Shown here piece by piece: positions 14,873 to 59,192 of a stretch of DNA of 64,000 nt. The notes below the pieces were generated by a model that was not told the DNA's origin, did no database searches, and saw only the letters and a list, made by a program, of their open reading frames with translations. The DNA lies in the NCBI RefSeq assembly GCF_028368975.1, contig NZ_JAQNDM010000002.1, positions 1,736,001 through 1,800,000 of the forward strand. The letters run 5' to 3'. This stretch comes from Stigmatella ashevillena (GTDB lineage Bacteria > Myxococcota > Myxococcia > Myxococcales > Myxococcaceae). Numbering within the stretch: the first letter of the stretch is position 1; each line of letters opens with the position of its first letter. The translations under genes and the position numbers were made by a program.

Positions 14873-14957
14873 TCGTCCACCCTCTTTGAAACCGTCCAAG
14901 CCAAAGCGCGCGCGAACGATACAGAGGAGAACGCCTGTCCCACAGCAGGGTGAAGGC

Positions 14958-14987: not shown

Positions 14988-14994
14988 AATGCCA

Positions 14995-15026
14995 GCGGCC
15001 GGAACCCTTGGGAGAGTTCCGGCCGC
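14995..15026. terminator. Perfect 11-bp hairpin downstream of the integrase remnant
   Basis: GCGGCCGGAAC pairs with GTTCCGGCCGC around a 10-base loop. The island integrase has the equivalent hairpin after its stop codon (59068-59102), so the structure belongs to the integrase-att module. It has no T run, so it may be a bidirectional transcription block or a recombination-related structure. Confidence 0.55.
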
Positions 15027-15038
15027 CGGACTTCATTC

Positions 15039-15065
15039 TGGAGCGGGAAAAGGGATTTGAACCCT
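15039..15065. other. Left attachment site (27-bp core)
   Basis: This core is identical over 27 bases to 59118-59144, which is the 3' end of the tRNA-Gly gene including CCA on the minus strand. After 15065 the sequence departs from the tRNA, so only the T-arm and acceptor part is duplicated, as expected for a tRNA-targeting tyrosine integrase. Confidence 0.9.
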
Positions 15066-36900: not shown

Positions 36901-37661
36901 ACGCCCAGCCCCGTGTCCAAGTCAACAAAGCGCCCCTGCTGCGCCGTCCACGACTTGAAGAACGTGCGAACCAGATCACTGAACAGCTTGGCGCGCGGGC
37001 TCTGGGCGTCTCTGTCGGCCTCGCCGACGTACTGCGCTCCGGCGGCGGCCTCGAACGTGGCGGCGTCCCACTTGCGCGCCTCGGCGAGCTTGCCCCAGCC
37101 GCTCGCCGCCTGCTTCACACCGCCGTTCAGCTCCTCGAAGAACTTGTCGTCGCCCATCCGGCGGCGCAGCTCGCGCGCGTCGTCGAAGAGGCCCTGGTCG
37201 GCGTAGACGGCGGGCGTCGGCGCGTCGGGGTGGTTCTTGGCGACCCAGGCGACGTACGAGCCGAGGATCTTTGACTCCATGTCCTGCGCGCCGAGCATGT
37301 GGATCGGGAGCTGGAGGAGCTTCTTCTTGCCGATCCACTCGTTCTTGCCGCGCAGCGCGTGCAGCTCACCGCGGCTCCACGGGGCCGGGTGGTCGGCGAG
37401 CATCAGGTCGAGCAGCGCCATGAAGTGGCTCTTGCCGGCGCCGAACGAGCCGTGGAGGTACGCCGCCTGGCTGCGTCCGTCGCGCAGCGCGCTGCCGATG
37501 ATGGACAGCGCGTGCTCGAACGTCTGCACGATCTTCGGCGTGATTGCGTAGTCCCGCACGGTGCGCTCGGGATTGCCGATGCCGCCGGTGAGGTCTTGAA
37601 CGAAGTCGCCCTTGCGAACGGCCTCCGGCAGGTCGAGCAGGTCGTGGATGCGTGTCGTCAT
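33957..37661 (-). CDS. pglY: BREX type 2 large ATPase PglY (BrxC-like)
   Basis: The product has 1234 residues. The P-loop is HGSFGAGKSHF (residues 70-80) and Walker B is IVLYLDELVLWLAG. A Cys cluster (CQRLREDHDRRLGCSGCQEKMC) in the middle could bind zinc. PglY/BrxC proteins are the large AAA-like ATPases of BREX and are thought to drive the complex on DNA (family knowledge). Its ATG overlaps the pglX stop and its stop overlaps the pglZ ATG, so translation is coupled on both sides. The frame is intact. Confidence 0.95.
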   Translation of the reverse strand: MTTRIHDLLDLPEAVRKGDFVQDLTGGIGNPERTVRDYAITPKIVQTFEHALSIIGSALRDGRSQAAYLHGSFGAGKSHFMALLDLMLADHPAPWSRGELHALRGKNEWIGKKKLLQLPIHMLGAQDMESKILGSYVAWVAKNHPDAPTPAVYADQGLFDDARELRRRMGDDKFFEELNGGVKQAASGWGKLAEARKWDAATFEAAAGAQYVGEADRDAQSPRAKLFSDLVRTFFKSWTAQQGRFVDLDTGLGVMSRHARSLGFDAIVLYLDELVLWLAGNAGVPGFVGRETQKMVKLKEAQDADRAIPIVSFMARQRDISQFLGEHASGSLRAETQRNMSHHEGRFEVVELADSNLPAIVAHRVVRPKDGSSAQKLADDFAKTWRAAGQAQSVLIGSEGDEADFKKVYPFSPALVEALVALSECLQRERTAIRILMELLVTHLPDLETGRVVPVGDAFDALAESEDPIDDPVMKARFDRARDLYRESFLPIIRRQHNTDTQAKCQRLREDHDRRLGCSGCQEKMCRNDNRLAKTLLMAALVPEARPFKGLTVKRLAHLNHGTIASPIPGAEMQVVAQRLRDWASQVGALRLGEQADPEVNIHLSGVDLQPILAQAAEADTPGARKNAMRRLLFQALELDSEGTVVETELPFHGTRRKGRVRYGNVREMDDTTLTCPRDFEWQLLVDYPFDERGHGPDEDLRTVERYRDSRPADAPPNPTVVWLPTFFSHSLERELGELVILEHILDGDARKYLGHLRVEDQSTTRADLASLRAQKEALVKRTLAQAYGLAMANDSAFLDQSRTVDEHFIPLLGDLDIRAVLAGTMKDGFRQVVDTMLSKKYPHHPRFDGTVSASRMEKVGALVDKLLDERDRRMNVEKGERNDLRAYADPLGITETGDVAVLLNERPFKELEQQRQQAGIDTPTVGNVRGWLDPQRTRGLPAEVQDVLISLYVSWSGRTFRRDGKSYTLPRPGQLPDDVELLRPELPTQAEWAEALNRAGELFGVAIGGRSLGARNLSAFADKVKEKLREVGDAAELPAALEPKIRDWAELEDAPRLATARASAALLQQLSRGDGASIVRDLASFTPKTSITAMGRNFTTAAASKRLLQEDARWIVLRQVKGLLGEAERGERAKLLLQDLAALLTADEVNKMLADGLSALTRRADELLRVPIGKPQPPKPSAGEEVVLEASNDLADAKAAAKTLRELAERLEAEGKDASRITIRITAWKRRPE

Positions 37662-40600: not shown

Positions 40601-41461
40601 GAGCACCAGGCGGAAGCGGGCGATGGCGACCGCGTAGGGGTTGATGTCGACGCCGTAGACCTGGTCGAGCGCGCGGCGCGCGAGGTCCGCGATGTGCTCC
40701 GTCGGCGCCTCCTTCTGCCAGCGCCCGAGGAGCCGCCGGAACCCACCGAGCAGGAAGTGGCCCGAGCCGCAGGTCGGGTCGATGAGGCTCACGTCCTTGA
40801 GTCCGAACTCCGAGATAGCCGGGTCGAGCGTCTGGTCGAGGATGAACTCCTCGACGAACTCCGGCGTCTGGAGCAACGCGTAGCGCTTGCGGACTGCCTC
40901 GGAGAGGTCCTGGTACAGATCGCCCAGGAAGCGCGTGTCCTCGCGCGTGAAGACCAGCGCGGGCGCACCGCTCGCATCGCGCTTGCGGAAGAAGTCGAGC
41001 ATTGCCTTGGCGCCCTCGCTCGACGGCGAGAGCACCCAGATCGGGTTGTGCTTGGTGTCGAAGACATCGCGCGCGCCGGGGAGCTTCGAAAGCTCGCGGA
41101 ACACCGCGAGGAGGTACTCGCGCGGCCCGAGGAACGGCGCGACCTGAAGGTACAGAGCCTCGCGGTCTTCAGCGGCGCGCAGCGCATCCCCCGAGGCGCC
41201 GGCCACGCGCGGGGCGATGTAGCCGCGGTCTTCGAGCGTGCGCACGAAGACGACCGACAAGATCCACGCGACGGCGAGCTGGGTGACGCGCTCACGACGC
41301 CACGGGTCGAAGCCGAGCCCCGTCTGTCCGGACTTCTGCTCGTCCTCCCACGCCTTCTTCAGGCCGGCCTCGACGCTATCCGTCTTCGCGCGCGCGAAGA
41401 GGTCCTTCTCGATCGCCTTGAGTGCGGGCTGCAGCAGCTTCGGCAAGTTCGCGATGCTCAT
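37658..41461 (-). CDS. pglX: BREX adenine-specific DNA methyltransferase PglX
   Basis: The product has 1267 residues from the ATG at 41461 (MSIANLPKLLQ), two bases after the pglW stop; the upstream ATG at 41503 would overlap pglW. SAM motif I is DPTCGSGHF (residues 228-236) and the catalytic motif is NPPY (363-366), typical of N6-adenine methyltransferases. Residues about 400-750 (DNA about 39240-40460) should hold the target-recognition region. This part uses noticeably more A/T-ending codons than both flanks. The C-terminus ends in a winged-helix-like region (LASAVGVTKALVAKALKKL). PglX marks host DNA so that BREX spares it. Confidence 0.95.
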   Translation of the reverse strand: MSIANLPKLLQPALKAIEKDLFARAKTDSVEAGLKKAWEDEQKSGQTGLGFDPWRRERVTQLAVAWILSVVFVRTLEDRGYIAPRVAGASGDALRAAEDREALYLQVAPFLGPREYLLAVFRELSKLPGARDVFDTKHNPIWVLSPSSEGAKAMLDFFRKRDASGAPALVFTREDTRFLGDLYQDLSEAVRKRYALLQTPEFVEEFILDQTLDPAISEFGLKDVSLIDPTCGSGHFLLGGFRRLLGRWQKEAPTEHIADLARRALDQVYGVDINPYAVAIARFRLVLALLDAVGIKRLEKAPDIRPHVVVADSLLHRFDQRADSKGQMSLGDDLHWGERLFQLENRGDVESVLSKRFHAVVGNPPYITEKDGVKRKKFIEMYRSAAGQFALAAPFTERFFELALQGGFVGLINANSFTKRDFGAPLIQKVLPRFDLAKIVDTSGCYLPGHGTPTLLMFGRNREPAGANVVAVLGKRGERDVPTNPAAAPVWKEIIAHHAEPGFDGSHISVEEITRSESARHPWVLTGGGARGFLQAMKATAPDTLSTVIDDIGYSVIIGQDEAFVRPAHVARDLPTIPVGVGDVIRDWAISSVDVAIRPFDPKTLDVVEDQRVIRTLWFARRILEERVVSGSTSMKTAGKKWFDLRRLSRSKHSTPLSIALAFVATHNHFALDHGGRIFKQSAPVIKLPSHRDESDHLAFIGYLNSSTVAFWCRLVMFPKGGDQVGDGARLSATQWNRHLEYAGNLLQQLPVPKIEGLRTKLLDLVVAAEETVKHMAEQAPEKVVTATLSSTPKLAVLRDARAKSLAERARLRGILVSLQEEMDWRVYGLFGLPTFEAPSVDAVRVPVEPNHRPFEVRLAREVATDISASDWFRVHKREAPKDVGGPLAELYRQRLRLLDQPEHGRQLRLLETPETKRRWSPPDDKKAFSDAVRRWLLARIEKSFRDQAQPELRTARQLALELGRDPAVAAAHELLTEESGLDLVKLLSDLIDSEGVPFLAGYRYAEAGLEKRASWEETWRLQRIEDEDPKKLQEELKRLNLKSIPVPDKYGPKDFLRHYWGLRGKLDVPKERFVTVPGGNTDEDTTPLVGWAGWNPLQVAQALSGLYQRRKTEDGWQKDRLVPLLAGLDERVPWLLQWHNEPSADFGGMKLGEFFRDFVAGEAHALGVAVGDLRKWTPPAAPKRMTVDPAEVLAALSAWKPEVEEDEEDDGEDAEPPEGPTDVELASAVGVTKALVAKALKKLIADGLVEKLSGRPARYVATGDQA

Positions 41462-41463
41462 CG

Positions 41464-44400
41464 TCAGGGCGTCTCCGCGGCTTTGTGGGCGTTCGCCAGC
41501 CACGCATCGGGCATGACGAGCCGCTGGCTCGGTAGCGGCGCGGGAACAGGCAGCCGGCCATTGATGGAGGGGGCGGTGCCGTCGGCGTGCGACGGAACCA
41601 CGAGCAGGATGGCGGGCGCGTCACCGCGCTCCGCTTCGTCGACGATGTGCGAGAGCGCACCGGAGAGGCCGTAGCGCGCAAGCGCTCCGGGCCACGCAAG
41701 GATGAGCGTCTGCTCGCGGCGCTTCAAGAGGTCGTCGACGACGCCGTCGGTCGCCTGGCGCACCAGCTCGAGGAGCAGCGGCCAGTCAGGGCCATCGGGG
41801 CCCGCGCGGTCGGCGGCCTCGATGTTCGCCCAGTCGACATCGAGCTTTGCTGCGGTCTTTCGAACGGCGGCGAAGAGCTCGTGGTCCAGCGACACGGCCT
41901 TCGTCTTGAGCGCCGAGGCGAGCGCGTCGGTCGCGTGGCTCGCGATGTCGGCTCGTACCTGCACGACGCGGAAGCGGCCCGCCGCGACACCGCGATCGAG
42001 CTGGTCCTGGAAGGCTGCCGCCCGCTGCGCATCGGGGCTGCGCCGCTGCGGGAGGCCAGGGGCCGTGGGCTTCCGCGCGGGCAGTGCCACGGTCATCGAC
42101 GTGTGCGCGTGCACGCCCGGGCGCACATACTCGCCCGAGCCGACGTCAGGCATGAACACGAGCCCATGCGGGGCGAGCAGCGCATCGAGAGCTGGACGCT
42201 CGGGGAGCGGCGCGGCCTCGGGGTAGCGCGCGGCGACGCGCTTCTTCACGGCGTCGGGCGTGAGGCCCTCGCCCGAGAGCGCCGCGAGGCTCAGGGCCAG
42301 GGCGCGCGTCGCGTCCATGCCGCGCGGGTAGAGCTCGAGGCGGGCCGAGGCCGCGGCGTTCGTGCTGGCGCGCGCGGCGAGCGTGAGGCGCTGGTCCGCC
42401 GGCAGCGTCGCGAGCGGCGTGCCCTCGGCGACCTCGGCGAGCTTGCTGCGCACCACCTCGGAGGAGAGAAGCGGCTCGGCCACGGCGAGGCTGTCGGCCG
42501 TCTCGGCCAGCGCAGCGAGCGCGTCGAGGACTTCGGGATCGCGCGCGACCCACGGCGTGCCGCCGACACGGCGCCAGGTGGCCGGCGGGTTTGGACGGAG
42601 CTCGAGGGCCACGCGCACGAGCGCCGCGGCGGTCCGCACGTCGTCGTCGCTCGGTGTTCCGTCGGTGCGCGCCTTCGCCAGCGCCTTCGCCAGGTCGACG
42701 AGCGGCGCGGCGGGCGCCAGCGCGTCGAGGGCCGAGGACAGCGCCTCGGTCAGCGAGGCCGCGGCCGCGCTGTCCCCCCACCGCTTGTTGCGCAGGAACT
42801 GGAGGCTCGCGTAAATCTGCGCCGGATCGAGGCCGAACGCGCCGGCCACCTCAGACACGGTGCGCGCCGCCGGAAGGCCCGTGTCGGGGCGCTCGTCGGG
42901 CAGCGAATCGAGGCCGACGAGCACGCGCAGGCGCTTGTTGGCCTCGTTCTGGCTGGCACGGCCGATCAGCTCGCGGGCCCAGTCGCCGAGCGAGCCGGGC
43001 GTCGGTTCTGCTGCCGCAAGCGCCACGAGCCGTTCACGCAGCGCCTCCGCGCGCGGCCTGCCGAGCAGCTTCTCGATGCGCGCGGCATGCGCGAGTGCAG
43101 CATCAACGGTGGTCTTGAGGCCCGCCGCGACGAGACGATCGACCGTGCTCGCGTCGATTCCGGCCTCGGGCTCCTCGAGAATCAGGCGCGGGCGCGCGAA
43201 GCCGGGCACGAGCACCGGGCGGTTCTCCACCTCGAAGCGGGCGCGAAGCTCGTCGGCAACCTTGACGATGTCGCGAGCGACCTGGGTGCCGACGCCGCGC
43301 ACGACCGAGAGCTGGTTGCGCGGCAGGAGCAGGAGCTCCGCGACCGTCGACACGCCCGCGCGGTCCAGCGCGTTGCGCGCGCGCGCCGAGAGCGGCAGCG
43401 CGTCGACCGGCGTCTCGGGGCGCACCTGGTCGAGCGCGATGGCGGAAGCGCCGTCGTCGGTCTCGGCCTCGACGGAGAGCGCGTGGACCCAGGCCTGGCG
43501 CATCGCCTCCGCGCTCGCGAAGCGCGCCTTCGCTTCGCGCGCGAAGGCTTTGCGGAAGAACGCGGTGAGGCGGTCGCGCACGGCCGCGTCGAAGCGCTCG
43601 GCCTCGACGACGATCTCGGAGGTCGCGTCGCCCTGCGGGAGCGTCGGACGGGCGGCCGTCAGCGCGTGGTAGAGCACGGCGGCGGCGGCGTAGCGGTCGG
43701 CCTCGGCGTCCCAGGCGCCGCGCAGGTAGAGCCATGGATCACGCCACTCGGCGGTGCCCGCGGTGATGGCGGTCGGGGCCGCCGACGAGAGCGAGAAGTC
43801 GAGCAAGAGCAGGTGGCTCTGCTTCTTCGAGAGGCTGGTGAAGCCGACGTTGGTCGGCTTGATGTCGCGGTGGGTGACCCCGGCCTCCTCGAGGTACTGG
43901 ACCGCCGACAGCAGGTCGTCGCCGTAGCGGCGCGCGAGCTCGAGCGGCAGCGTGCCCTGTTCGCGCAGCACATCACCGAGGCTGCGCTCTCCCGCGAACT
44001 CGAGGAGCAGGCACGGGAGCCCGCCCAGGGTGACGACGTCGCGCAGCGCGACGATGTGCTCGTGGCGCAGCTCGCGCAGCGTCTTCGCTTCGGAGAGCAG
44101 GCGCTCACCACAGCCGGCGTCGTGCGGGACCTTGAGCGCCAGGTCGCGCCCCTCGCGGCGCACGTGGAGCACGAGCGCCGTTCCGCCCGAGCCGAGGCGT
44201 CGCTCGACGCGCAGTCCCCCTTGCAGCGTGTCGCCCTTCTGCGCGTCACGCGGATCGGCGCCGGCGCCCACGTCGGCGGTGGGGCGCGTGAGCGCTTCGA
44301 GCACGAACGCGTTGAACCACTCGGCGATGTCGTCGGCACGCGCGTGGAGGTTCGGCTGCGTCGCGAAGGCGATGGCATCATCGAGGATGGCGAGGTCCGC

Positions 44401-45726
44401 GCGCACCGCTGACGGGCGCAGGCCCCCTTCGCCGTCCTTCACGCCCTTGATGCGCTGCTCGCGCTCCGGGACCGTGGCGGCCGGGTGCTGCCCGGTGAGC
44501 ACGAGCCACGCGAGACAGCCCACCGAGAACACGTCGCTCTCGTAGGTGGCCTTCGCGGGATCGGCGAGCACTTCGGGCGCCTGATACAGGCGGTCGACGT
44601 CCTGCGAGAGCTGGTGAAAGTGCCTCGTGCCGACGCTCGAGTGCTCGATCCACGCGGCGGTATGGAAGCGATGAAGGCGCACGTGGATGCGCCCGTCGCT
44701 GCCCCGCCGCACGAGCACCGACGCGGGCGAGAGGTTGCGGTGCAGGACACCCGAGCGGTGGCAGTGGGCGACCGCCTCGACGATCTGCTGCAGGAGCCCC
44801 AGGCGCTCGTCGAAGGTGAGGTTCGGCTCCTGGCGAACGAAGGCATGGAGCGGGAGCGATCCGGCGAAGGCCTCGAAGAGCACCGCCGGGCCCAGCGGGG
44901 CGTCATCGACGAAGGACCGGTACGCGAGGATGCCCGGGTGCTGGCCGATCTGCGCGAGCGTCTGCGCCTCGCGCTTGGCGGCGCGGTGGAGCTGCGAGCG
45001 TCGTTCGGCCGACGTCGCGGCGGGCACGAGGTAGCTGCGGACGCGCGCCTGGTCGGTCTCGACGACCGTGTTCTTCGCGAGGTGCTCCTGATAGCCCTCG
45101 CCGTCGTCGAGCAACAAGCCGAGCTGGTAGCCGCTCACCACGCGCGCCGTGGTGCTCGGGCGCAGCCCGATCTTGTGCGCAGCCTGGAGGAGCTGCTTCA
45201 TCATCGGCCGGTTGACGATGCGGCGCGCGTCGCGACCATCGAGCCCGTTGACGAGCTTGCTGCCGACGTCATCGGGGAGCAGGAGCCATGGCGGTCGACC
45301 GCTGTCGAGCCGGACTTCGGTCACGTTGGAGAGAAAGACCGCAGCATGAACGTAGGGGCGATCCGTCCCAAGGTGTCGTTCGAGCAGGTCTCCGAGCACC
45401 TTCGCCTTGAGGTTCGCGCCGGGGTACGGGCACTCGATCGTGCGGCGCCGCCCGTTCTCGGTGATCGTCCAGTCGACAATGTCACCCGTGAGCACGCCGG
45501 GGTGGCTCTTGATCTCGACGAGGAACAGACCCTGCCGCGAGAGGAAGAGAAGGTCGATCTCGTAGAGACGGCCCGACGACGGGTCATAGAGCTCGTGCAG
45601 CTCCCACGCCTGATGCGGATCGGTGTCCGAGAGCGACGCGTGCTTGTAGACGAGATCGAGCGCCTGCCGCTCCCAGGGAAACGGAGTCGGTCGACCGCGA
45701 TGGATGCGCGTCTCGGGAAGAGCCAC
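41464..45726 (-). CDS. pglW: BREX type 2 protein kinase PglW with NERD domain
   Basis: The product has 1420 residues. The N-terminal NERD nuclease-related domain is at residues 20-150 (YEIDLLFLSRQGLFLVEIKS, with the D...ExK pattern). A first kinase-like domain (about 230-470) has VLHRNLSPASVLV, so the HRD Asp is replaced and it is probably a pseudokinase. A second kinase domain (about 495-760) keeps GSGGTA, ALKVPHD and THRDIKPTNVGF, but has DFSLS where DFG is usual. A helix-hairpin-helix region (LSVVRGVGTQVARDIVKVA, about 800) follows, then a long C-terminus. PglW is the hallmark of type 2 BREX. Its GTG start shares one base with the upstream stop codon. Confidence 0.94.
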   Translation of the reverse strand: MALPETRIHRGRPTPFPWERQALDLVYKHASLSDTDPHQAWELHELYDPSSGRLYEIDLLFLSRQGLFLVEIKSHPGVLTGDIVDWTITENGRRRTIECPYPGANLKAKVLGDLLERHLGTDRPYVHAAVFLSNVTEVRLDSGRPPWLLLPDDVGSKLVNGLDGRDARRIVNRPMMKQLLQAAHKIGLRPSTTARVVSGYQLGLLLDDGEGYQEHLAKNTVVETDQARVRSYLVPAATSAERRSQLHRAAKREAQTLAQIGQHPGILAYRSFVDDAPLGPAVLFEAFAGSLPLHAFVRQEPNLTFDERLGLLQQIVEAVAHCHRSGVLHRNLSPASVLVRRGSDGRIHVRLHRFHTAAWIEHSSVGTRHFHQLSQDVDRLYQAPEVLADPAKATYESDVFSVGCLAWLVLTGQHPAATVPEREQRIKGVKDGEGGLRPSAVRADLAILDDAIAFATQPNLHARADDIAEWFNAFVLEALTRPTADVGAGADPRDAQKGDTLQGGLRVERRLGSGGTALVLHVRREGRDLALKVPHDAGCGERLLSEAKTLRELRHEHIVALRDVVTLGGLPCLLLEFAGERSLGDVLREQGTLPLELARRYGDDLLSAVQYLEEAGVTHRDIKPTNVGFTSLSKKQSHLLLLDFSLSSAAPTAITAGTAEWRDPWLYLRGAWDAEADRYAAAAVLYHALTAARPTLPQGDATSEIVVEAERFDAAVRDRLTAFFRKAFAREAKARFASAEAMRQAWVHALSVEAETDDGASAIALDQVRPETPVDALPLSARARNALDRAGVSTVAELLLLPRNQLSVVRGVGTQVARDIVKVADELRARFEVENRPVLVPGFARPRLILEEPEAGIDASTVDRLVAAGLKTTVDAALAHAARIEKLLGRPRAEALRERLVALAAAEPTPGSLGDWARELIGRASQNEANKRLRVLVGLDSLPDERPDTGLPAARTVSEVAGAFGLDPAQIYASLQFLRNKRWGDSAAAASLTEALSSALDALAPAAPLVDLAKALAKARTDGTPSDDDVRTAAALVRVALELRPNPPATWRRVGGTPWVARDPEVLDALAALAETADSLAVAEPLLSSEVVRSKLAEVAEGTPLATLPADQRLTLAARASTNAAASARLELYPRGMDATRALALSLAALSGEGLTPDAVKKRVAARYPEAAPLPERPALDALLAPHGLVFMPDVGSGEYVRPGVHAHTSMTVALPARKPTAPGLPQRRSPDAQRAAAFQDQLDRGVAAGRFRVVQVRADIASHATDALASALKTKAVSLDHELFAAVRKTAAKLDVDWANIEAADRAGPDGPDWPLLLELVRQATDGVVDDLLKRREQTLILAWPGALARYGLSGALSHIVDEAERGDAPAILLVVPSHADGTAPSINGRLPVPAPLPSQRLVMPDAWLANAHKAAETP

Positions 45727-48975: not shown

Positions 48976-49398
48976 TCACCTTCGCGGCCGATTCGAGTAC
49001 CGATGGTTCAGTTCGTTGGAGACGTCCTTCTCGTACCTTCCATCAAACCTACCGCTCGTGTCCAAGTCCGTAACGAACTCGTAGAACGAACGTCGCGACT
49101 CGGTCCCGCGCAGCACTGCGGCCAGGTGGTCATGGAACAGCGCCTCCAGCTCGAGTTCCGCACCCTCCATCCGCTCGGAGAACGTGAAGCCATGCCTGAG
49201 CAGTACAGCTCCTTTCTCCATCATCCTTTTTCGATCTTCACGTGGAACAGGCGCCCACCCAGCATCACAGGCCTGAAGATACCGCTTGTGGTAACGACGA
49301 TGCTGGCATGCTTCGGTGGGCTGATCTTTCGAGTAATGAAAATCGCAGATCCGACAGCGTCCGTACCAGCTCGTGATCTCAATGAAATTGCTACGCAT
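48976..49398 (-). CDS. Small zinc-finger-like protein (140 aa)
   Basis: The start chosen is the ATG at 49398 (MRSNFIEITSWYG), with GGAGG eight bases upstream; it overlaps the stop of the preceding gene. Residues 14-40 hold a Cys/His cluster, CRICDFHYS ... ACQHRRYHKRYL, a likely zinc finger. The rest is helical and charged (MEGAELELEALFHDHLAAVL). No family is known to me. It is third in a minus-strand run of small genes (50192 to 48976). Confidence 0.65.
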   Translation of the reverse strand: MRSNFIEITSWYGRCRICDFHYSKDQPTEACQHRRYHKRYLQACDAGWAPVPREDRKRMMEKGAVLLRHGFTFSERMEGAELELEALFHDHLAAVLRGTESRRSFYEFVTDLDTSGRFDGRYEKDVSNELNHRYSNRPRR

Positions 49399-49726
49399 GA
49401 GCATGGCCTCCGTTGATGACCGGCGCCAGCTCAATCCATCGCCGATTCCGTCCCCTCCATCGCGTGCACCGCGTGCAGCCCCAGCCGATCCACATCGCGC
49501 AGCCCACCACGTTTACAAGAGCACCGCAGCCAGGCCGCGGGCAGACGAAGAAGACACGTTCTCCGCCATGGCAGGTAGAGCTGGGCACTCGCTCAAGCCT
49601 CACGTCCACCACGAAGCCGAACTTCTCAAGACGTACTGAATGAGCCTGCCGGAAGCCTGCTGGCTTCATCCACGCTCGAACCATGGGCAAGGTGATTCGG
49701 GTGACCTGATCTCGGTAGATCGCCAT
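49391..49726 (-). CDS. Small Cys-rich zinc-ribbon-like protein (111 aa)
   Basis: The start is the ATG at 49726 (MAIYRDQVTRITLPMVRAWM), with GAGGGG upstream and seven bases after the previous stop; an ATG at 49747 would overlap that gene. A zinc-ribbon-like segment lies in the second half: FVCPRPGCGALVNVVG, then WGCTRCTRWRGR. Function unknown. Together with the flanking small genes it forms an operon of DNA-binding-looking proteins, typical of the accessory part of mobile elements. Confidence 0.68.
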   Translation of the reverse strand: MAIYRDQVTRITLPMVRAWMKPAGFRQAHSVRLEKFGFVVDVRLERVPSSTCHGGERVFFVCPRPGCGALVNVVGCAMWIGWGCTRCTRWRGRNRRWIELAPVINGGHAHA

Positions 49727-49733
49727 CGTCCCC

Positions 49734-50192
49734 TCACCTGCTCCCAACCTTCACAGTGTTGGCGTGGGCCACAAACATCTGTACGGGCCTGTCGCGGCCC
49801 AGCTCGATGCGGTGCTCTTCTAGGAGCATACGAAGCCGTCGGGTCATACTGTCCGCGAGCTTGGTAAGCACCTTCACAGCCTCGAAGTCCCCTCGGCCCA
49901 TCGCGGCACCGATAGCGGCATCAAGGAGATCCATCTGGCTGCGAGTGATGGCCAAGGAACGTGCGATGGTACGCAGACGGGTGGCGTCTCCATCTGGCCC
50001 TGCCAGCGCCTCAGCCAAGCCGCGGGCATGCTCTACGATCTGCTCCGAGTCGCCGATGACGAAGCTCGTGAGTGCAAGCTGGTCAATCGCCGGCAGACCC
50101 AGCCGAGGCTCTACGCGCGCGAGAGGTGGCGCCTCGGGAGCGAGTTCACATGGAATAAGCGAGAGATGTTGCAGAGTCGCGGATGTCGTCAC
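49734..50192 (-). CDS. Hypothetical helical protein (152 aa), first gene of the small-gene operon
   Basis: It starts with GTG at 50192. The N-terminus is Pro-rich (CELAPEAPPLARVEPRLGLP) and the remainder is helical (DSEQIVEHARGLAEALAG; ARSLAITRSQMDLLDAAIGA; EAVKVLTKLADSMTRRLRML). No family is recognised. It heads the minus-strand run 50192-48976. A CTAG box lies ten bases upstream of its start at 50202, related to the boxes at 50.6-50.9 kb, so it may share a regulator with them (inference). Confidence 0.65.
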   Translation of the reverse strand: MTTSATLQHLSLIPCELAPEAPPLARVEPRLGLPAIDQLALTSFVIGDSEQIVEHARGLAEALAGPDGDATRLRTIARSLAITRSQMDLLDAAIGAAMGRGDFEAVKVLTKLADSMTRRLRMLLEEHRIELGRDRPVQMFVAHANTVKVGSR

Positions 50193-50345: not shown

Positions 50346-50501
50346 CTATTCGCCCAAGTCTTCCAAGCCGATATCGCCATTCTGGAGGCCAGCAAGAACG
50401 AACTCAAACTCGGCATGGACACGCTGAAGCCGGTCGAGCTGCTGGTCGATGGCGACTTCTCGGGGATGGCGGCGAAGGAGGGCCAGGAATCGGTGGAGCA
50501 T
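50346..50501 (-). CDS. Possible 51-aa protein
   Basis: A short frame on the minus strand reads MLHRFLALLRRHPREVAIDQ..., helical with charged faces and acceptable codon bias for the region. There is no good ribosome binding site. The A/T-rich CTATACTTAAGAC just upstream could be a -10 box for a leaderless message. It lies in an otherwise empty 830-base interval, so I list it as tentative. Confidence 0.3.
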   Translation of the reverse strand: MLHRFLALLRRHPREVAIDQQLDRLQRVHAEFEFVLAGLQNGDIGLEDLGE

Positions 50502-51025
50502 GTCTTAAGTATAGGCGACCGCAGCCCACCCCACTTTACTCCTCGAATGCAACAGGACCACGAACGAGTACACCCTACAACGCGGGACTGGATGCATGCT
50601 CCCGCAGCAGGATGCAGCCTGTTACTTCACAAGCGTCTAGGCCTTAAGTCGTTGAATAGACAAGGATTTTACCCCTTTCTAGGCACTAGACAGAGAAAAC
50701 CTAATCTGCCAGTCAAAAGAAGAACCCCTAGAGTAGAAGGAGTACGAGTTCTGCGGGGCACAGGAGATGGTAGTAACTGTCCTTCCAGCGTCTAGCGTCT
50801 AGCGCGAGGGGCCCAACTCCGAAAACCCCAGGACTCCCGGACGCTTACGTGCACCGTCTCAGCTAGACACTAGCGGCCAACCCGGAGCAAGCGCCTCAAG
50901 GCCCGTGGAGGTGCTGGTTCCATGAGCCGGCAGCCGGCTGCTTCAACCTATCCCCCTGACCTCAAAGGGGCCTGCCTCGGCTCTTCTGGCATGTCCCGCT
51001 TCGAGGCATCGGGGGAACAGTTCCC
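50502..51025. other. Non-coding, A/T-richer interval with CTAG boxes; candidate origin or operator region
   Basis: No gene is visible between the small minus-strand frame and the end of the primase-helicase gene. The part 50630-50760 is much richer in A/T than the island average. The CTAG repeat cluster described separately is in this interval. An island origin of replication next to its primase would be an expected arrangement, but this is inference. Confidence 0.45.
50637..50873. repeat. Cluster of CTAG boxes, three as CTAG-N3-CTAG pairs
   Basis: CTAG occurs at 50637, 50679, 50686, 50728, 50792, 50799, 50863 and 50870. Three pairs have exactly the same 7-base step: CTAGgcaCTAG, CTAGcgtCTAG and CTAGacaCTAG. 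Related boxes occur ahead of other island genes (50202; GCGTCTAGG at 56444; the palindrome ACGCTAGCGT at 57697). Heptad-spaced repeats suit ribbon-helix-helix regulators, and one such gene lies at 55050. Confidence 0.6.
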
Positions 51026-53425
51026 TCAGTTGGAGAAGTCCTCCGCAGTCCCCAGGAGCACGTTCTCCTCATGCTTCACCTCAACACTGGGAACGGCGTA
51101 GGGCGCCTTCTCCCCTGAGAGACGCGTCACTTTCCCATCGGAGTCCATGTCCAGTGGCAGCCCCAGCCACACCCGCTCCTGGCCGCGTCCCTTGAGGGAC
51201 GCACGATCCGCTTTGGCCTCTGGGAAAGCAGCCTTCATCGCGTTGCGGAGTGGGACATCAATGTTGTCCGGGATGGACAAGCCCTGCCTACGTGCCCAGT
51301 ATTTGATGACGCTGACGAGTTCCCCTGAGGGGATGTGCTCACATCCGTCCGCGCTACCAATCGCAATGGCAACGCGCACTTCGTTGTGCCGTATGTCGTC
51401 CGCCTTCTCCCAAGCCGAAGCCAGCGAGCGGTAGCCGACCACACGAAGCTCATCTACGGCTTTCTCGACAGTGCTGAGCGAGGCGTTCTGCATCAAGCGC
51501 CAGGCGGCAGTCTCGAACTGGGTGTTGACGTCAATCTGTACCTGCCGATGGAGCAGGTGGTGGAAAAAGGCTGCCACCTGTGTACGCAAGCCGTTCATGT
51601 CCGCACGCAGGGTCTTGATGAGCGGTTGAGGCAGTTTCGTGCGGCTGTGGAAAACAATGAAGCGACGATCTCCACGTTCGATGCGCACCGGGCGGTCATC
51701 GTTGGAGCAGAAGAGCAGCGTCATCTTGTTCTTCGCGTTGGGCTGCGCCTTCTCGCCCTTCTCCTCAACCACTACGGTGGGATCGGTGATGAGCCGCTTC
51801 AGCTTATTGGCGAGAGCCTTCTCCTTCGTTGTGCCTGAGTTCACCTCGTTGGCCACCAACAGCAGGGTGTCCGCGTTCCACGAACTGAACCGCTCCTCAA
51901 GCCGCTCCTGGTCCACGGTGATGACGCTCCCCTCCGGGTAGAGCATTTGGAGCACCTCCACCAACGTCCCCTTACCCGATCCTTGTTCTCCGTGGAGGAC
52001 CACTGCGGTCAGCATCTTCTGCGGTGCCTTCTGGACGTAGATGCGCTGCACCACGAGTGCGAGCCAGTCGAGGAAAAATTCGAACGCCTCCTCGCGCTGG
52101 TCTTCGCCCACGAGGTTCATTACGAGCGCCCGGATGTCCGACCAGTCGCCCTCACGCGGCACGATGCGCGTAGGGACAAACGTGTTGAACGTCATGAGCC
52201 CGTTGTGCTTCACCAGCCGCTCAGTGCTCTCGTAGACAGGAGCACGCTTCTTGTAATTGGGAATCTGCGTCTTCATGAAACGCTCGATAGCCTTCCGATC
52301 CCCAATAGTGGGGGCGAGCATGGTAGCGAGCGCGTCGGGCAGGATGTCCGGAAGGTAGCTGCCATCGGCCTGGAGAATCTCGTAGCGATTGGCGCTGACG
52401 TTGAAGAGGTACTTGCTGGGGTTGGCATCCCCCTTTGCTGCTTCGGCCTGGGCATCGGCCACCGGGGTGAGCTCGCGCCCGTACGGAGGAGGAAGCCCGT
52501 GTCCGCTCAGGTCCAGCCAGGTCATCGGCTCCTCCTTTGCCGCGGCAGCCAAGTTCCTCGCTGCCTCCTCTATTCCCGTGTCAGGGCAGAGTTCCGCGAA
52601 GGCAGTGACGCATGCATCGAGCGCGTCATGATCCTCGTTGAGGATGGCGGCAAGGTTGCTGGCGATGCCATGACGGAGCTGGAGGGAGAGCGTCTTCGCG
52701 TTTGCCTTGGCCCACCGCCATATCTTCCCGTTGAGGAGGGCTGCCAGGATGGTGGAGTGGTGCGCCGTCGGCACCTCCGGCTCAAGGAAGACTGGCTCCC
52801 GGAAGTCGGACGGGACCATGTCCACGCCGAGCTTCGGTCCCTTCAGTTCCACCAGCCAGGCGGCCCCTGCAGTGGCCTCAGCATGGGTACACTGAGGAGC
52901 CTCGACCAGCCTGTGAGGAGCAAGGGGCGTCACGCCCGGCGAAGGGAAGAGCTGCATCACCCATGCCGTCAGCCGATGGAGTTCCCGGAGGGTGTGCATT
53001 CGATCCAGCAGCAGGATGACGCGCATGCGGTCGCACACGGGCCCTGTGGTGTCAGTCGAGTACATCACCCCACTGAAGCCGAGGAGCTCACGCACCTGCT
53101 CTGGGCCGTAGGGGTATTCCACGTCCCAACTGAGCCGGGTGGTATTATGAATGTCGAGAACGAGCGCGCAGCCCCCTTCGATGTCCCGCTGCTCAAGAGG
53201 ACGGCTGCGAGGAAGGAAGTACGCCTTGGGCTTGGCGAAGATGTAGCCATGCTTCGCGGGCCCAATCTGCGGCTGGGCAGTGAGCAACTTGAAGAGCAAC
53301 TGCGTCTCCTCGAGTTCAATCACCTGGTAGTCCCAGCCGCTCAAGGCATCCGTGCGCGAGGCGCTGGTGAGCTCGAACCGCAGAAGCCGAGCATTGACCG
53401 AGACGAGGGGATTAGGCGCGGACAT
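51026..53425 (-). CDS. Primase-helicase (DUF5906/D5-like) of the mobile element
   Basis: The product has 799 residues from the ATG at 53425, with GGGAGG six bases upstream. The N-terminal 300 residues look like a primase/polymerase-type region (YIFAKPKAYFLPRS; RMRVILLLDRMHTLRELH) but I cannot assign catalytic residues. The second half is a superfamily 3-type helicase of phage and plasmid elements: VVLHGEQGSGKGTLVEVL (Walker A, near residue 475), DTLLLVANEVN (Walker B), then TLLFCSNDDRPVRIERGDRRF. It probably unwinds or primes DNA for replication of the island after excision. It is next to the CTAG-rich non-coding interval. Confidence 0.85.
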   Translation of the reverse strand: MSAPNPLVSVNARLLRFELTSASRTDALSGWDYQVIELEETQLLFKLLTAQPQIGPAKHGYIFAKPKAYFLPRSRPLEQRDIEGGCALVLDIHNTTRLSWDVEYPYGPEQVRELLGFSGVMYSTDTTGPVCDRMRVILLLDRMHTLRELHRLTAWVMQLFPSPGVTPLAPHRLVEAPQCTHAEATAGAAWLVELKGPKLGVDMVPSDFREPVFLEPEVPTAHHSTILAALLNGKIWRWAKANAKTLSLQLRHGIASNLAAILNEDHDALDACVTAFAELCPDTGIEEAARNLAAAAKEEPMTWLDLSGHGLPPPYGRELTPVADAQAEAAKGDANPSKYLFNVSANRYEILQADGSYLPDILPDALATMLAPTIGDRKAIERFMKTQIPNYKKRAPVYESTERLVKHNGLMTFNTFVPTRIVPREGDWSDIRALVMNLVGEDQREEAFEFFLDWLALVVQRIYVQKAPQKMLTAVVLHGEQGSGKGTLVEVLQMLYPEGSVITVDQERLEERFSSWNADTLLLVANEVNSGTTKEKALANKLKRLITDPTVVVEEKGEKAQPNAKNKMTLLFCSNDDRPVRIERGDRRFIVFHSRTKLPQPLIKTLRADMNGLRTQVAAFFHHLLHRQVQIDVNTQFETAAWRLMQNASLSTVEKAVDELRVVGYRSLASAWEKADDIRHNEVRVAIAIGSADGCEHIPSGELVSVIKYWARRQGLSIPDNIDVPLRNAMKAAFPEAKADRASLKGRGQERVWLGLPLDMDSDGKVTRLSGEKAPYAVPSVEVKHEENVLLGTAEDFSN

Positions 53426-53738
53426 AGCGCACCTCCCGTCGGCTCAAGCCAGTTCCTGACCATCTTTCAGCACCGGGGGCAAGGCTCGGACCGCCGCCTC
53501 CATCCTCGGAGTACTCGCGTGACACACAGGTGAAGAGCCGTAGCCCCACCGAGATCTCTATGCTACCATCTAATGACATCTGTTTCTCCGCATCATTCGG
53601 CCCTGGAGCGCGTTAGCGGCGCTTCGGGGCTTTTGTATTTAGGGCGATTCCTACCGCTTCTCCTCGCTCAACTCGTGCGCTAGTGGAGTGTCTTACAAGT
53701 TCGTGGACATAGTCGCGGGGGATGAATAGCTCTGGTGG

Positions 53739-54098
53739 ATGAGGAGACGTCCCCCGCGACTCATCCACCTGTCGCCCGAAGAGACCGAGTATCTTGAGGA
53801 CTTGGTGCGAGATGGGCGCACCGAGCAGCGTGTCGCTCGTCGTGCGCGTATCCTGCTGGCGATGGCCGACCCGGACACCATCGTCTCGGAGTTGGCCGAC
53901 CACCTCGAGCAAAATCGCAGGACCCTCTGGACCCTGTGTCGTCGCTTCGAGGCCCAAGGGGTGGAGGCTGTAGAAGATGCTCCCCGTTCCGGTCGGCCGC
54001 GGGAGCTTTCCCCCCCTGCAACGAGTGGAGGTGGAGCGCCTGGCATGCTGCGAACCGGCCGGCGTCGGGCTGCACATGACCCACTGGTCCACTCGTAG
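53739..54098 (+). CDS. IS630 transposase, N-terminal frame
   Basis: This frame holds the HTH part of the IS630 transposase: IHLSPEETEYLEDLVRDGRT, RRARILLAMADPDTIVSELA, and RTLWTLCRRFEAQGVEAVED with PRSGRPREL. After RPRELS the homology passes to the next frame. The junction is a C7 tract (54009-54017), where a +1 shift joins the two parts. It is either programmed frameshifting or a one-base mutation; the sequence alone cannot decide. Confidence 0.85.
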   Translation: MRRRPPRLIHLSPEETEYLEDLVRDGRTEQRVARRARILLAMADPDTIVSELADHLEQNRRTLWTLCRRFEAQGVEAVEDAPRSGRPRELSPPATSGGGAPGMLRTGRRRAAHDPLVHS

Positions 54099-54858
54099 TC
54101 TGGCGCGTGCTGCCCAGCTCCGGGGGATTGCCTCCACCATCTCCCACTCCACCGTCGCGCTCATCCTTCGCGATGCCGAACTGCAACCCCACCGCTGGCG
54201 CTACTGGAAGACACCGACTCCAGACGACACCTTTCGCGCCAAGGCCGCCAAGGTCCTCTGGTGCTACGAGAATGCTCACTCCCTCGCAGAGCGAGGCGAG
54301 GTGGTGTTGTGCGTGGACGAGAAGCCCAACATCCAAGCTCTGGAGCGGCGCTGCCCCTCGCGCTCGATGAAGCCGGGCCTCATCCAGCACCAAGAGTTCG
54401 AGTATGTGCGCCACGGCACGGTGAACTTCTTGGCCAAGCTGGTGGTGCATACCGGCAAGATGCGCGGCTGGTGTCTGGAGCACAACGACAGCGCCAGCCT
54501 GCGGGCGGTCCTGCCCCAACTGTTGTGGGAGCATCGCCAGGCCCGTCGCATTCACCTCATCTGGGATGCGGGCTCCAGCCACATGGCCCACCCGACGCGT
54601 TCGTTCCTCAGCAGCTACTACCCTCAGGTTCGAGTGCTCTTCACTCCGGCCCATGCCTCCTGGCTCGATCAAGCCGAGTTGCTGCTGCGCGCCTTCGGGG
54701 CGCGCTACCTTCAGCGGGGCGACTGGGCCAGCCGCTCCGAACTCATCGAGCACCTCAACGCAAGCTGGCCCGAGTACAACCGTCTCTATGCCCACCCGTT
54801 CACTTGGTCCTGGACTCGGACCCAGATGCACCGGTGGGTGGATCGTTACCAGTCCTGA
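53977..54858 (+). CDS. IS630 transposase, catalytic frame
   Basis: Genuine homology starts at about FPPLQRVEVERLACCEPAGV, after the C7 tract, and runs to the end. The DDE-type triad is visible as VVLCVDEKPNIQAL (Asp), IHLIWDAGSSHMA (Asp) and HASWLDQAELLLRAF (Glu). GLHMTHWSTRSLA is the family's second HTH/linker segment. It has no good start of its own and is expected to be made as a fusion with the N-terminal frame. Confidence 0.88.
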   Translation: MLPVPVGRGSFPPLQRVEVERLACCEPAGVGLHMTHWSTRSLARAAQLRGIASTISHSTVALILRDAELQPHRWRYWKTPTPDDTFRAKAAKVLWCYENAHSLAERGEVVLCVDEKPNIQALERRCPSRSMKPGLIQHQEFEYVRHGTVNFLAKLVVHTGKMRGWCLEHNDSASLRAVLPQLLWEHRQARRIHLIWDAGSSHMAHPTRSFLSSYYPQVRVLFTPAHASWLDQAELLLRAFGARYLQRGDWASRSELIEHLNASWPEYNRLYAHPFTWSWTRTQMHRWVDRYQS

Positions 54859-55050
54859 CTATGTCCAAAAACTTGTAAGACACTCCACTAGCAGGTGCTC
54901 CAGTCCCTCAAGGATGAGAGTGCGCAGGGGCGGCGGAGGACCACCCTCCCGCTCGGCACGAGCCATGCGCAAGGCATCCAGCCGCGAGCGCAGGTCCAGG
55001 GGCAGCGCGAAACTTGTTATGTATGTAAGTGCAGATCCAGGCATTCGCAT

Positions 55051-55471: not shown

Positions 55472-56371
55472 TCAGCCCTCCTGCATCGCCTGGGGCTGAG
55501 GGGACGATGAGGCGGGGGAGATTCCGGAAACGTTTCCGGAATTCGCCTCGCCCCCAGCAGCATCCGCGCCATCCCCGGATGCCTCGCCCCGCGGCTGCTG
55601 CAGCGAGCTGGGGACGCGCCCGGACGCGGCATCCAGTCGCCCAGCATCCGCCAAGAGCAGCTGGCCAAGCGCCCGCAGTTCCTCAGCTGCCTTGTTCAGG
55701 AGCGCCGCAGCCTCGGGCGTAGCGACCTCATCCTCCAGCCCGGCGAGCGCCTTCTCCGCTTCTGTCCATTCGCCGCGCATCCGCTTCGCCTGCGCCAGCA
55801 GCTCGGCGAGCTTCTGTGCGACAGGATCCTCAGCAGCGCTCACCCCTCCCTGGTCTTCCTCCTCCCGTGCTTCAGAAGGCGTCTCGGCGGTGGGAGTCAG
55901 CAGCTTCTTGACGCGGCTGCGCACGGCTTTGACGGTGAGGGACTTCTCCAGCGCTTCCTTGATGATCTGCTCCCGGGCCGTTGGATCCTCTACGGATGCA
56001 ATCGCGACAAGGACGTAGAACCGCAGAGGCAAGCCCTTGGGGTTCGTCCTGGCGAGAAGCGCCTTGTACTGCTCCGGGCTCCACGCCCTCGCCACGGTGG
56101 CACGGTGGTCGAGGCTCCTCTCGTCCCATCCCAGCTCGACTGCCAGCCGCTTGATGCTTCCGTCTCCGTATTTCCTCGGAGCATCCATCACGTCGCGCAC
56201 CACGCAGCCGATGCGGTACTGCGCTTCGGCATCCGCGGTGTCACTCTCAGCTACCAGCTTGCTCAGTTCCTTCAGCGCATCCTGCAGCTCGGGGTTCATC
56301 TCTCCCGTGAACTTCCCCTTCTTGCCCCCCTTGGACGCACCAGGGAGCGAGCCCTTCTTCGATTTAGACAT
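55472..56371 (-). CDS. Hypothetical protein with DUF1016-N-like region (299 aa)
   Basis: The start is the ATG at 56371 (MSKSKKGSLPGASKGGKKGK), with AGGA upstream; the open frame reaches 56413. Residues 20-160 (YRIGCVVRDVMDAPRKYGDG; SIKRLAVELGWDERSLDHRA; VARAWSPEQYKALLA) resemble the N-terminal part of DUF1016/YhcG proteins, which has an HTH-like fold. The C-terminal half is Ala/Glu-rich coiled coil and a low-complexity tail. There is no nuclease domain. It could be a DNA-binding or partition-like protein of the island. Two CTAG boxes lie upstream at 56432 and 56448. Confidence 0.68.
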   Translation of the reverse strand: MSKSKKGSLPGASKGGKKGKFTGEMNPELQDALKELSKLVAESDTADAEAQYRIGCVVRDVMDAPRKYGDGSIKRLAVELGWDERSLDHRATVARAWSPEQYKALLARTNPKGLPLRFYVLVAIASVEDPTAREQIIKEALEKSLTVKAVRSRVKKLLTPTAETPSEAREEEDQGGVSAAEDPVAQKLAELLAQAKRMRGEWTEAEKALAGLEDEVATPEAAALLNKAAEELRALGQLLLADAGRLDAASGRVPSSLQQPRGEASGDGADAAGGEANSGNVSGISPASSSPQPQAMQEG

Positions 56372-56887
56372 AAATAGCCGTCCTGCTCCGCCTTGCGGCA
56401 GAGCACCCATCAATGCGACGCAGGAACGCCACTAGGGCGACTTGCGTCTAGGTATTGAGGCCGTCACAGGCGCCGAAGCACCTGCGAGCGGCCAGATCTG
56501 CTCGGTGCAATGCACGAGCGGTGGTTTGCATTGGCGTGTGCGGCCAGTTCGCACGAACGGCTCGCCGACAAGCGGCGAACAAAAGGCTGGCTACTGCTTT
56601 GCGTGATACATGCGACAGCGTCCCCCTGATACACCATGCCCCATGCGGAGTTCAACCCCCTGCTACCGGAGCGCCGACAGCACTCGCGATGCCCCCTGGA
56701 GCTTCGAGGATCTTTGAGCCCAGCAGCGCGTCCGAAATCGTGCCTCGGCCTCGGTATAAGCGAGAAGGGTGCGCTCCCTCTTTCCGTGCCCATCCGCACG
56801 AGGGCGCTCCCCAAGGGCTGCATCGGCCTAACGCCGGCTTGCCCGCCCCCACCATCACCCCACAGACGCTGGGAAGGAGATCCCTGC
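56372..56887. other. Intergenic, divergent promoter region
   Basis: These 515 bases separate two divergent genes. I see the two CTAG boxes near the minus-strand gene (GCGTCTAGG matches the copy at 50634) and an open plus-strand frame from 56636 that runs into the next gene without a ribosome binding site. No RNA gene is recognised. Confidence 0.45.
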
Positions 56888-57729: not shown

Positions 57730-57960
57730 GTGTCTCAGCAGAACAATGAAGCGGAAGTTCCAGCAGCCCTCTCGGATGTGCTCACCGTGGAGGAGGCAGC
57801 GGCCTTCCTGCGGGTGAACCGGAAAACCCTCTACGAGGCCGTCCGCCTGGGCAGCATCCCGGGGGTTATCCGCATTGGCCGAAGCATCCGCATTAGTCGA
57901 TCCACCTTGTTAGGGTGGGTCCAGGGTAACGGCGGTCCTGCGCTCGGAGAAGAAACGTGA
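57730..57960 (+). CDS. xis: Excisionase-like helix-turn-helix protein
   Basis: The product has 76 residues from the GTG at 57730. It is an HTH_17/excisionase domain: LTVEEAAAFLRVNRKTLYEA, then GVIRIGRSIRISRSTLLGWV. It directly precedes the integrase gene, whose GTG overlaps its stop (GTGA), so both are made together. It likely bends DNA at the attachment sites or regulates the integrase. A palindromic CTAG box (ACGCTAGCGT) lies 25-35 bases upstream of its start. Confidence 0.88.
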   Translation: MSQQNNEAEVPAALSDVLTVEEAAAFLRVNRKTLYEAVRLGSIPGVIRIGRSIRISRSTLLGWVQGNGGPALGEET

Positions 57961-59060
57961 GCGTGCGACTGCGGAAGTGGAAGACGAAGGAGAAGAAGGT
58001 GCAAGAAGCGTGGTGGGTGGACGTGAAGTTCCAGCATCCCGACGGGAGGGTGGAGCGAATCCGCAAGGCATCGCCCATCAACACCCGCAGGGGGGCTGAG
58101 CAATACGAGCGCGAGCTCCGCCAAGCTCTTCTCAACGGCACCTTCGGAAAGGAGAAGAAGGAGGTTCCCACCCTGGAGCAGTTCCAGGAGCGGTTCCTCA
58201 CCTACAGCGAGAACAACAACAAGCCCAGTCAGGTATACGCGAAGCGCGGCATCCTGAATAACCACCTCGTTCCTGTCTTCGGGAAGCTGCGACTCGATGC
58301 GATCGGCCTCGCGGAGGTGGAGGCGTACAAGGCCCAGAAGCTCAAGGAGAAGCTGACCCCGAAGTCGGTGAACAACCACCTCGCGGTGCTGCACAAGCTG
58401 CTCGCGGTGGCCGTCGAGAGCGGCGATCTCGCGCAGCTCCCGCGCATCAAGATGCTCCGGGCCGCCAAGCCGGAGTTCCGCTTCCTCACCTTCGAAGAGG
58501 CGGATCGCTTCCTCGCGGCGGCAACTCCCGAATGGGCCGCCATGCTCACGGTGGCCTTGAAGACGGGCCTGCGCATCGGCGAGTTGCTCGCCCTCAAGTG
58601 GGAGGACATCGATCTGGTGGCAGGCCGTCTCATGGTGCGCCGGACTTTGTGGAGCGGTCAGGAGGGCACTCCGAAGGGCGGGCGCAGCCGAGAGGTCCCA
58701 CTGTCCACGCGGGCAGTCGAGATCCTCAAAGCCCACCGCCACCTCAAGGGGCCCTACGTCTTCTGCGGCCCCGGCGGCGAGCGCCTCACCCACAGCATGG
58801 TGAAGGCGGTGGTCTCCCGGACCTGTACCCGCGCTGGCCTCGCCAAGCGGCTCGGCTGGCACGATCTCCGGCACAGCTTCGCGTCCCATCTCGTCATGCG
58901 CGGAGTGGCGCTCAAGGCCGTCCAGGAGCTGCTCGGCCACGCCACCATCGACATGACGATGCGCTACGCCCACCTGAGCCCGGACGTGAAACGGGACGCC
59001 GTGCACATGCTCGACACGCCGAGCCCCGCCAGGGGCACATACGGGACACATGAAGCCTGA
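57957..59060 (+). CDS. int: Tyrosine-family site-specific integrase of the island
   Basis: The product has 367 residues. The N-terminal arm-binding part has a basic start (SVRLRKWKTKEKKVQEAWWV) and the core-binding SAM-like domain is near 75-165. The catalytic domain has the Arg in TGLRIGELLAL, the Lys near GGRSREVPLS, HDLRHSFASHLV with His and Arg, LGHATIDMTMRYAHL with the second His, and the Tyr nucleophile in MRYAHL. All active-site residues are present. It ends 57 bases before the right attachment core, the usual int-att layout. The tRNA-Gly 3' end is its target. Confidence 0.96.
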   Translation: MSVRLRKWKTKEKKVQEAWWVDVKFQHPDGRVERIRKASPINTRRGAEQYERELRQALLNGTFGKEKKEVPTLEQFQERFLTYSENNNKPSQVYAKRGILNNHLVPVFGKLRLDAIGLAEVEAYKAQKLKEKLTPKSVNNHLAVLHKLLAVAVESGDLAQLPRIKMLRAAKPEFRFLTFEEADRFLAAATPEWAAMLTVALKTGLRIGELLALKWEDIDLVAGRLMVRRTLWSGQEGTPKGGRSREVPLSTRAVEILKAHRHLKGPYVFCGPGGERLTHSMVKAVVSRTCTRAGLAKRLGWHDLRHSFASHLVMRGVALKAVQELLGHATIDMTMRYAHLSPDVKRDAVHMLDTPSPARGTYGTHEA

Positions 59061-59117: not shown

Positions 59118-59144
59118 TGGAGCGGGAAAAGGGATTTGAACCCT
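59118..59144. other. Right attachment site (27-bp core within tRNA-Gly)
   Basis: It is identical to 15039-15065 and forms the 3' end of the intact tRNA-Gly gene. Integration therefore restored a working tRNA at this end. Confidence 0.9.
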
Positions 59145-59192
59145 CGACCCTCGCCTTGGCAAGGCGATGCTCTACCGCTGAGCTATTCCCGC
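59118..59192 (-). tRNA. tRNA-Gly (GCC)
   Basis: The 75-nt gene includes the encoded CCA. The acceptor stem is GCGGGAA with TTCCCGC, the D-arm region is TAGCTCAGCGGTAGAGCA, the anticodon stem TCGCC/GGCGA encloses loop TTGCCAA (anticodon GCC), and the T-arm contains GGTTCAAATCC. All arms pair well. Its 3' third is the target of the island integrase. Confidence 0.97.

Follow-up and report, generated by a model that had tools for sequence, protein, structure and literature searches.

A cluster of short repeats found directly 3' of a primase-helicase gene of Stigmatella ashevillena is a real and conserved iteron array, the layout and gene neighbours of which are likewise directly observed. The repeats are heptads and, judging from sequence comparison, they are very probably the iterons of the replication origin of an integrated island of ~44 kb located at a tRNA-Gly gene. 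All positions refer to the window, which is the whole stretch of 64,000 nucleotides analysed here, while L and G numbers denote loci and genomes in which relatives were sought.

CTAG words and the repeat unit

Eight CTAG tetramers were found within positions 50637-50873 (starting at 50637, 50679, 50686, 50728, 50792, 50799, 50863, and 50870), with three CTAG-N3-CTAG pairs of 7-base step beginning at 50679, 50792, and 50863, in agreement with a preliminary description of this DNA. The same description had noted that CTAG is usually under-represented in proteobacterial DNA, and in the window CTAG is indeed depleted, with 31 occurrences compared with a mean of 96 in shuffled sequences. The densest 237 bases hold eight of these 31, with 20,000 random placements of 31 sites reaching a maximum of six, once. 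For the CTAG-N3-CTAG pair, three were observed in the window against 0.14 expected. A genome-wide count, which had been named as a check, returned four pairs in 10,951,030 bases, three of them in this cluster, and the pattern is thus not frequent elsewhere. By our own arithmetic ~2.6 pairs would be expected genome-wide if CTAG occurred independently at the density of the window; outside this cluster there is a single pair, which amounts to no enrichment. A control with the reversed pattern gave 166 occurrences per strand genome-wide, an unfair estimate of chance because the reversed pattern is a GATC word, which is not depleted.

While the clustered repeats are real, their unit is not CTAG, as first described, but the contiguous heptad (C)TAGRCRC, present in five exact and two degenerate copies. 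The CTAG pair is a by-product of this unit, since the iteron starts with TAG after a C and abutting copies read CTAG-N3-CTAG. Seven of the eight CTAG derive from the heptad; the eighth, at 50728, has no fit to TAGRCRC and its surroundings are not conserved in the closest related locus, L031. The window as a whole contains 11 copies of TAGRCRC, five of which are in the cluster.

The iterons are arranged as two facing arms (directions being those of the primase gene). The right arm is a single TAGACGC on the minus strand (50633..50639), corresponding to a TAGACAC at position 5201 of L031. It is separated by a gap (50641..50678) from the tandem TAGGCAC TAGACAG on the plus strand (50680..50693, second copy degenerate), which has the same place and strand in L031. 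Beyond this are the tandem TAGACGC TAGACGC on the minus strand (50788..50801; TAGGCGT TAGACGC in L031) and the tandem TAGACAC TAGCGGC on the plus strand (50864..50877, second copy degenerate), of which L031 retains one TAGACAC. The gap is proposed as the melting site on the basis of its A/T content, as 40-base stretches in or across it are among the most A/T-rich of 50501-51025.

The island and the genes around the array

The proposed initiator is a primase-helicase of 799 amino acids encoded on the minus strand (51026..53425), with matches to DUF5906 (1.5e-20), VapE-like (3.5e-8), and a PHROG DNA primase (2.5e-29). The array starts ~150 bases past its stop codon. The cluster had been described as lying in a non-coding stretch beside this gene; its place directly 3' of the gene stands, with the correction that a conserved 51-codon ORF (50346..50501, minus strand) lies between the cluster and the gene at 49734-50192. 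Relatives of this small ORF occur in L031, L074, L075, and L144. The gene that follows (49734..50192, minus strand) has no Pfam match and is conserved at 14 places in 12 of 147 genomes of the class. Next to it is a small conserved gene (49391..49747, minus strand), also without a Pfam match, whose alignment has Cys pairs and appears zinc-ribbon-like by eye.

At the other end of the primase gene is an element which we take to be IS630-like (53679..54892, plus strand; DDE_3), with 36-base inverted ends (94%). It is inserted at a CTAG within a small ORF (54859..55050, minus strand), the end of which it has altered, and its transposase frame contains a stop. The interrupted ORF is ribbon-helix-helix-like by eye and has relatives in L031, L074, and L075; family searches with it (Pfam, PHROGs) gave no match. 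A gene at 55472-56413 separates it from an excisionase-like HTH gene (57730..57960, plus strand; HTH_17, 1.9e-14), which is followed by a tyrosine integrase gene (57957..59060, plus strand; Phage_integrase, 1.2e-36) adjoining a tRNA-Gly (59118-59192, minus strand).

The 3' end of the tRNA-Gly (59118..59144) forms a 27-base putative attachment repeat which recurs at 15039..15065, placed by repeat comparison at the other island boundary. This second copy sits in a 115-column, 84% repeat that also holds an integrase tail. The second integrase-tail and tRNA-Gly-end repeat extends over 14957-15065, with a further 22-base piece at 15192-15213, and together these suggest that islands are stacked at one tRNA. 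If the tRNA-Gly end repeats are the true ends, the element may be read as a ~44 kb island within a tandem of islands. Its cargo includes six neighbouring genes at 27732-45726 with BREX matches (BrxHI/HII, BrxD, PglZ, BrxC/PglY, PglX, and PglW), a set that would, by a label of our own, be a type 2 BREX. A gene pair at 46857-48574 matches PDC-M41A and PDC-M41B, which are PADLOC candidate defence genes, the second being DUF5131; in L031, an ORF at 415-1419 resembles a member of this pair by eye. A sacsin/NO VEIN-like protein and a CHAT protein are also encoded.

Conservation of the array and its possible functions

Primase matches were found in 25 of the 193 genomes searched, the own genome included, with only one other genome, G033 (locus L031), carrying a primase that is 80% identical. 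The stretch 3' of the primase in L031 aligns with that of the window, and its iterons have the same places and the same strands, the order in the primase direction being >, <<, >>, gap, < in both, except that the first site, paired in the window, has just one copy in L031. The iterons are identical at 44 of 53 bases compared with 198 of 373 in the rest of 50600-51025 (Fisher P 2.5e-5), the iteron positions for this count having been chosen by eye with both sequences in view. The gap is identical at 23 of its 38 bases. Conservation of the CTAG pair in related islands, another point of the preliminary description, was seen in part: the pair is present once in G033 (C59) and is absent from the arrays of G041 and G054, which have another iteron word. 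When 96 genomes were searched with the origin DNA, G033 was the only clear match beyond the window among the matches listed, the others being short with E 0.007 or worse.

This comparison bears on the idea that the CTAG words are by-products of insertion, left by elements which target CTAG and which came and went. The island does contain an IS630-like element at a CTAG, 3 kb from the array, but no insertion remnants were seen in the array. Furthermore, with a primase 80% identical, L031 retains the heptads in the same order and on the same strands, and the iterons are better conserved than their surroundings. The L031 comparison thus largely refutes a by-product of insertion, which is extremely unlikely.

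A search with TAGRCRCTAGRC gave 13 matches in 10 of the 96 family genomes. Two are in the own genome (G000) and one is in G033:C59, all within the two arrays. The remaining 10 matches, at nine loci, were considered as origin copies and rejected, as none of the nine loci encodes relatives of eight island proteins (tblastn, 1e-3). The one in G014 (L066, 5534-9554) sits among 17 CTAG in ~4 kb around a CTAG-N3-CTAG pair, with no island-protein relative detected at the locus.

More distant primases are found in L074 (G041; 33% identity over the matched part) and L075 (G054; 29%). Both loci retain the small 51-codon-type ORF, the 49734-type gene, and the ribbon-helix-helix-like ORF; L074 additionally has the 49391-type gene, and L075 has an integrase 65% identical and an excisionase 80% identical to those of the window. 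The iteron word 3' of the primase is CGTCTTACC with a period of nine in L074 and GTGTCTCG with a period of eight in L075. All 11 GGTAAG of the 17-kb L074 fall within 321 bases, in the array, as do six of the seven CGAGACA of the 16-kb L075 within 239 bases, also in the array. In both, the arms follow the order >, < or <<, >>, gap, < or <<, additional copies lie beyond this set, and the 40-base stretches richest in A/T fall in or across the gap. Judged by eye, the iterons of the window, L031, L074, and L075 all contain GTCT, and in all four a CTTARG/TTTAGG box lies at the right border of the gap. Each locus departs from the scheme in one respect: a 286-codon ORF separates primase and array in L074, and in L075 the array is beside the primase with the small ORF ~6.6 kb beyond it. 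G041 and G054 have three CTAG pairs each, all outside these arrays.

The boxes had also been read as operators of one regulator. In such a case a small island regulator, ribbon-helix-helix-like or HTH, would bind the heptads and control the operon starting with the 50501 ORF. Steps of 7 bases suit ribbon-helix-helix proteins, and this fit favours operators, as do the location of the cluster 132-376 bases upstream of the 50501 ORF and one more TAGACGC ahead of the 55472-56413 gene. Iteron binding can regulate too, so origin and operator could both hold. However, neither the primase nor the small regulator ORF has such boxes ahead of it, and both word and period vary among relatives retaining the regulator-like ORF (8 in L075, 9 in L074). 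The boxes reported near other genes proved weak: that at 56444 is a single TAGACGC copy, and those at 50202 and 57700 are CTAG that do not match TAGRCRC. A regulon of CTAG boxes was rejected on the basis of the iteron words in the window, L031, L074, L075, and L106 and of the CTAG positions in the relatives, with boxes outside the array not being conserved. In L075, for example, the excisionase is conserved yet the four CTAG of the locus lie well away from both xis and the 55472-type gene, and the iteron words of L074 and L075 are concentrated in the arrays. A conserved geometry around an A/T-richer gap is, moreover, origin-like. The claim of one regulator's operators was not upheld on these grounds, and an operator function is considered unlikely.

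Facing arms with an A/T-richer gap were observed in the window, L031, L074, L075, and L108, the order in L108 being >, <, >, gap, <. An array follows on the 3' side of the primase in L031, L074 (where one ORF intervenes), L075, L078, and L108; in L144, L146, and L152 it is flanked by the primase module and the 49734-type gene. The arm order of L144, L146, L147, and L152 is unlike that of the window, L031, L074, and L075. L149 has a weaker array candidate near the 49734-type gene, and L129, L079, L128, L145, L148, L150, and L151 showed no clear array where one was expected. When clustered 8-mers were sought in a blind scan, the array came out on top in the window, L074, L075, L078, L144, L146, and L152 and took second place in L108 and L147; in L031 the array was outside the top three of the locus. 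Random controls were run in one batch only, four per locus with a coarser step, and the window array scored 7.3 against random maxima of 6.3, 7.4, 5.4, and 4.9, so that by blind scan alone it is not significant. An exact 7-mer scan of the window ranked a coding repeat first and not the array. The case for the window array consequently rests on conservation and not on the scans.

A second primase group comprises 17 loci in 15 genomes. In 16 of them a TGACGGA array precedes the helicase match by ~1.4-1.7 kb on the 5' side; the sequence of the 17th extends just 283 bases upstream. The arrays have one word in common and probably a common descent, so they do not count as independent. In L109-L120 and L122-L125 the TGACGGA iterons form facing pairs, several of them around a pyrimidine-rich stretch with TTAGGA or CCTAAG. 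A very strong CCGTAACA array (score 16.6) was noted at 10383-10631 of L127, located ~3 kb 5' of the helicase match. Contig scans with the primase and with an alignment, together with a viral-contig scan, yielded no confirmed relative. Of the 260 matches in phage records, every one was <60% identical and fell short of 80% query coverage.

Plasmid partition sites, too, can contain iteron arrays, and the repeats might accordingly be a centromere-like or oriT-like site serving partition or transfer instead of initiation. Within the subset of island ORFs scanned, none was a relaxase or ParA-like gene, and in six related loci the arrays come after the primase gene; such a role is judged very unlikely. 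The other suggestion of the preliminary description, iterons of an origin, is supported by the conserved order and strand of the heptads in L031 and by other iterons in a similar layout in further islands. As the geometry stays while the word changes, the comparison points to an origin with a co-evolving initiator, with which an operator is hard to square.

The proposed initiator and comparison with known origins

The winged-helix part of the primase C-terminus (51164..51343, minus strand; ~residues 695-754 in a model) is the proposed iteron reader. The C-terminal 175 residues (625-799) were modelled as helices followed by a winged helix with pLDDT 86-92; the best of five models had an overall pLDDT of 75.5 and the other four 41-50, while the full-length model was unusable with a mean pLDDT of 39. 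With the C-terminal model, Foldseek gave nothing significant, its top match being an ORC chain at E 0.13. VIA gave Z values of 6.3 for RFX5, 6.0-6.2 for the C-terminal region of NrS-1 primase, and ~4.0-4.5 for several Orc/Cdc6 chains, a size which, according to the tool's note, can reflect a mere common arrangement. The NrS-1 match (6k9c, 6k9e, 6lrb) extends over 89-92 residues with rmsd 3.4-3.5 and ~10% identity, and is favoured because these chains are also hit by the helicase core in a sequence-profile comparison (E ~2e-29). A weak sequence match of the primase (E 0.0021) was to 7ola/7om0, which we take to be SaPI5 Rep; their absence from the VIA structural listing excludes nothing.

If the heptads are indeed iterons of an origin, the primase-helicase would grip the iteron arms with its C-terminal winged helix and assemble on both sides of the gap at 50641-50678. 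The gap would then be melted by the initiator, which may load itself as helicase and prime, and the island would be copied, presumably after excision at the tRNA-Gly.

We would propose only tentatively that a family of large integrative defence islands in these bacteria has origins of the PICI type, in which the arm arrangement is fixed while repeat word and period switch, presumably together with the DNA-binding end of the initiator. If true, PICI-type origins would not be exclusive to phage satellites, and the specificity of the origin would be switching under selection, through incompatibility or counter-attack at the origin. A BREX-carrying island would, if the reading is right, own a replicon, which bears on the movement and amplification of whole defence systems. 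The natural series of initiators and iterons (TAGACRC, CGAGACAC, GGTAAGACG, and others) would make the code read by the helicase C-terminus directly testable.

PICIs have a size of ~15 kb, and some are without packaging or capsid-diverting genes. Of their features the island has an integrase, an excisionase, and an attachment site; the small size is not shared, with ~44 kb between the tRNA-Gly end repeats if these are the true ends. No packaging genes (terS, morphogenesis) were found with PHROGs and Pfam in the subset of island ORFs scanned. Unlike in the PICIs, the array of a related primase group is 5' of the helicase match. The element itself, being large and with no packaging gene in the ORFs scanned, is therefore not assigned to the PICIs here. 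No report of origins of this kind in myxobacterial islands was found in the literature within reach, which excluded most subscription papers.

By analogy, the array most likely belongs to an already known type of origin, that with the PICI layout. Published accounts describe PICI and SaPI origins as sets of iterons on either side of an A/T-rich stretch, located 3' of rep (PMC6092414, PMC7581432). As in the PICI origins of SaPIs and EcCICFT073, the island array is directly 3' of the initiator gene, and its short iterons form two sets with an A/T-rich stretch between them; the initiator has primase and helicase parts, and integrase and excisionase are present (PMC6092414). The island is unlike the PICIs of the same account in its ~44 kb and in carrying BREX and other defence-like genes. 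The C-terminal domains of SaPI Rep and Cch2 bind repeats downstream of their own genes (PMC7581432). The repeats of the island are, similarly to those of SCCmec Cch2 and SaPI Rep, directly downstream of a helicase gene, and the DNA-binding C-terminal domain of those proteins corresponds to that proposed here (PMC7581432); by this analogy the primase C-terminal domain is presumed to read the iterons. The word differs, being AAGTG in Cch2 in that account. Similarity to the NrS-1 phage primase lies in the helicase core, by profile, and in a C-terminal domain in the corresponding place.

In the PLE satellites of Vibrio cholerae, as described in PMC8263062, matched types of initiator and origin swap between elements. 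The islands resemble PLE/RepA in that initiator and iteron types are matched and differ between related elements, and the type swapping provides a precedent for the change of word between these islands (PMC8263062). PLE RepA differs in binding through its N-terminal domain, to iterons which are three semi-palindromes of ~30 bases (PMC8263062).
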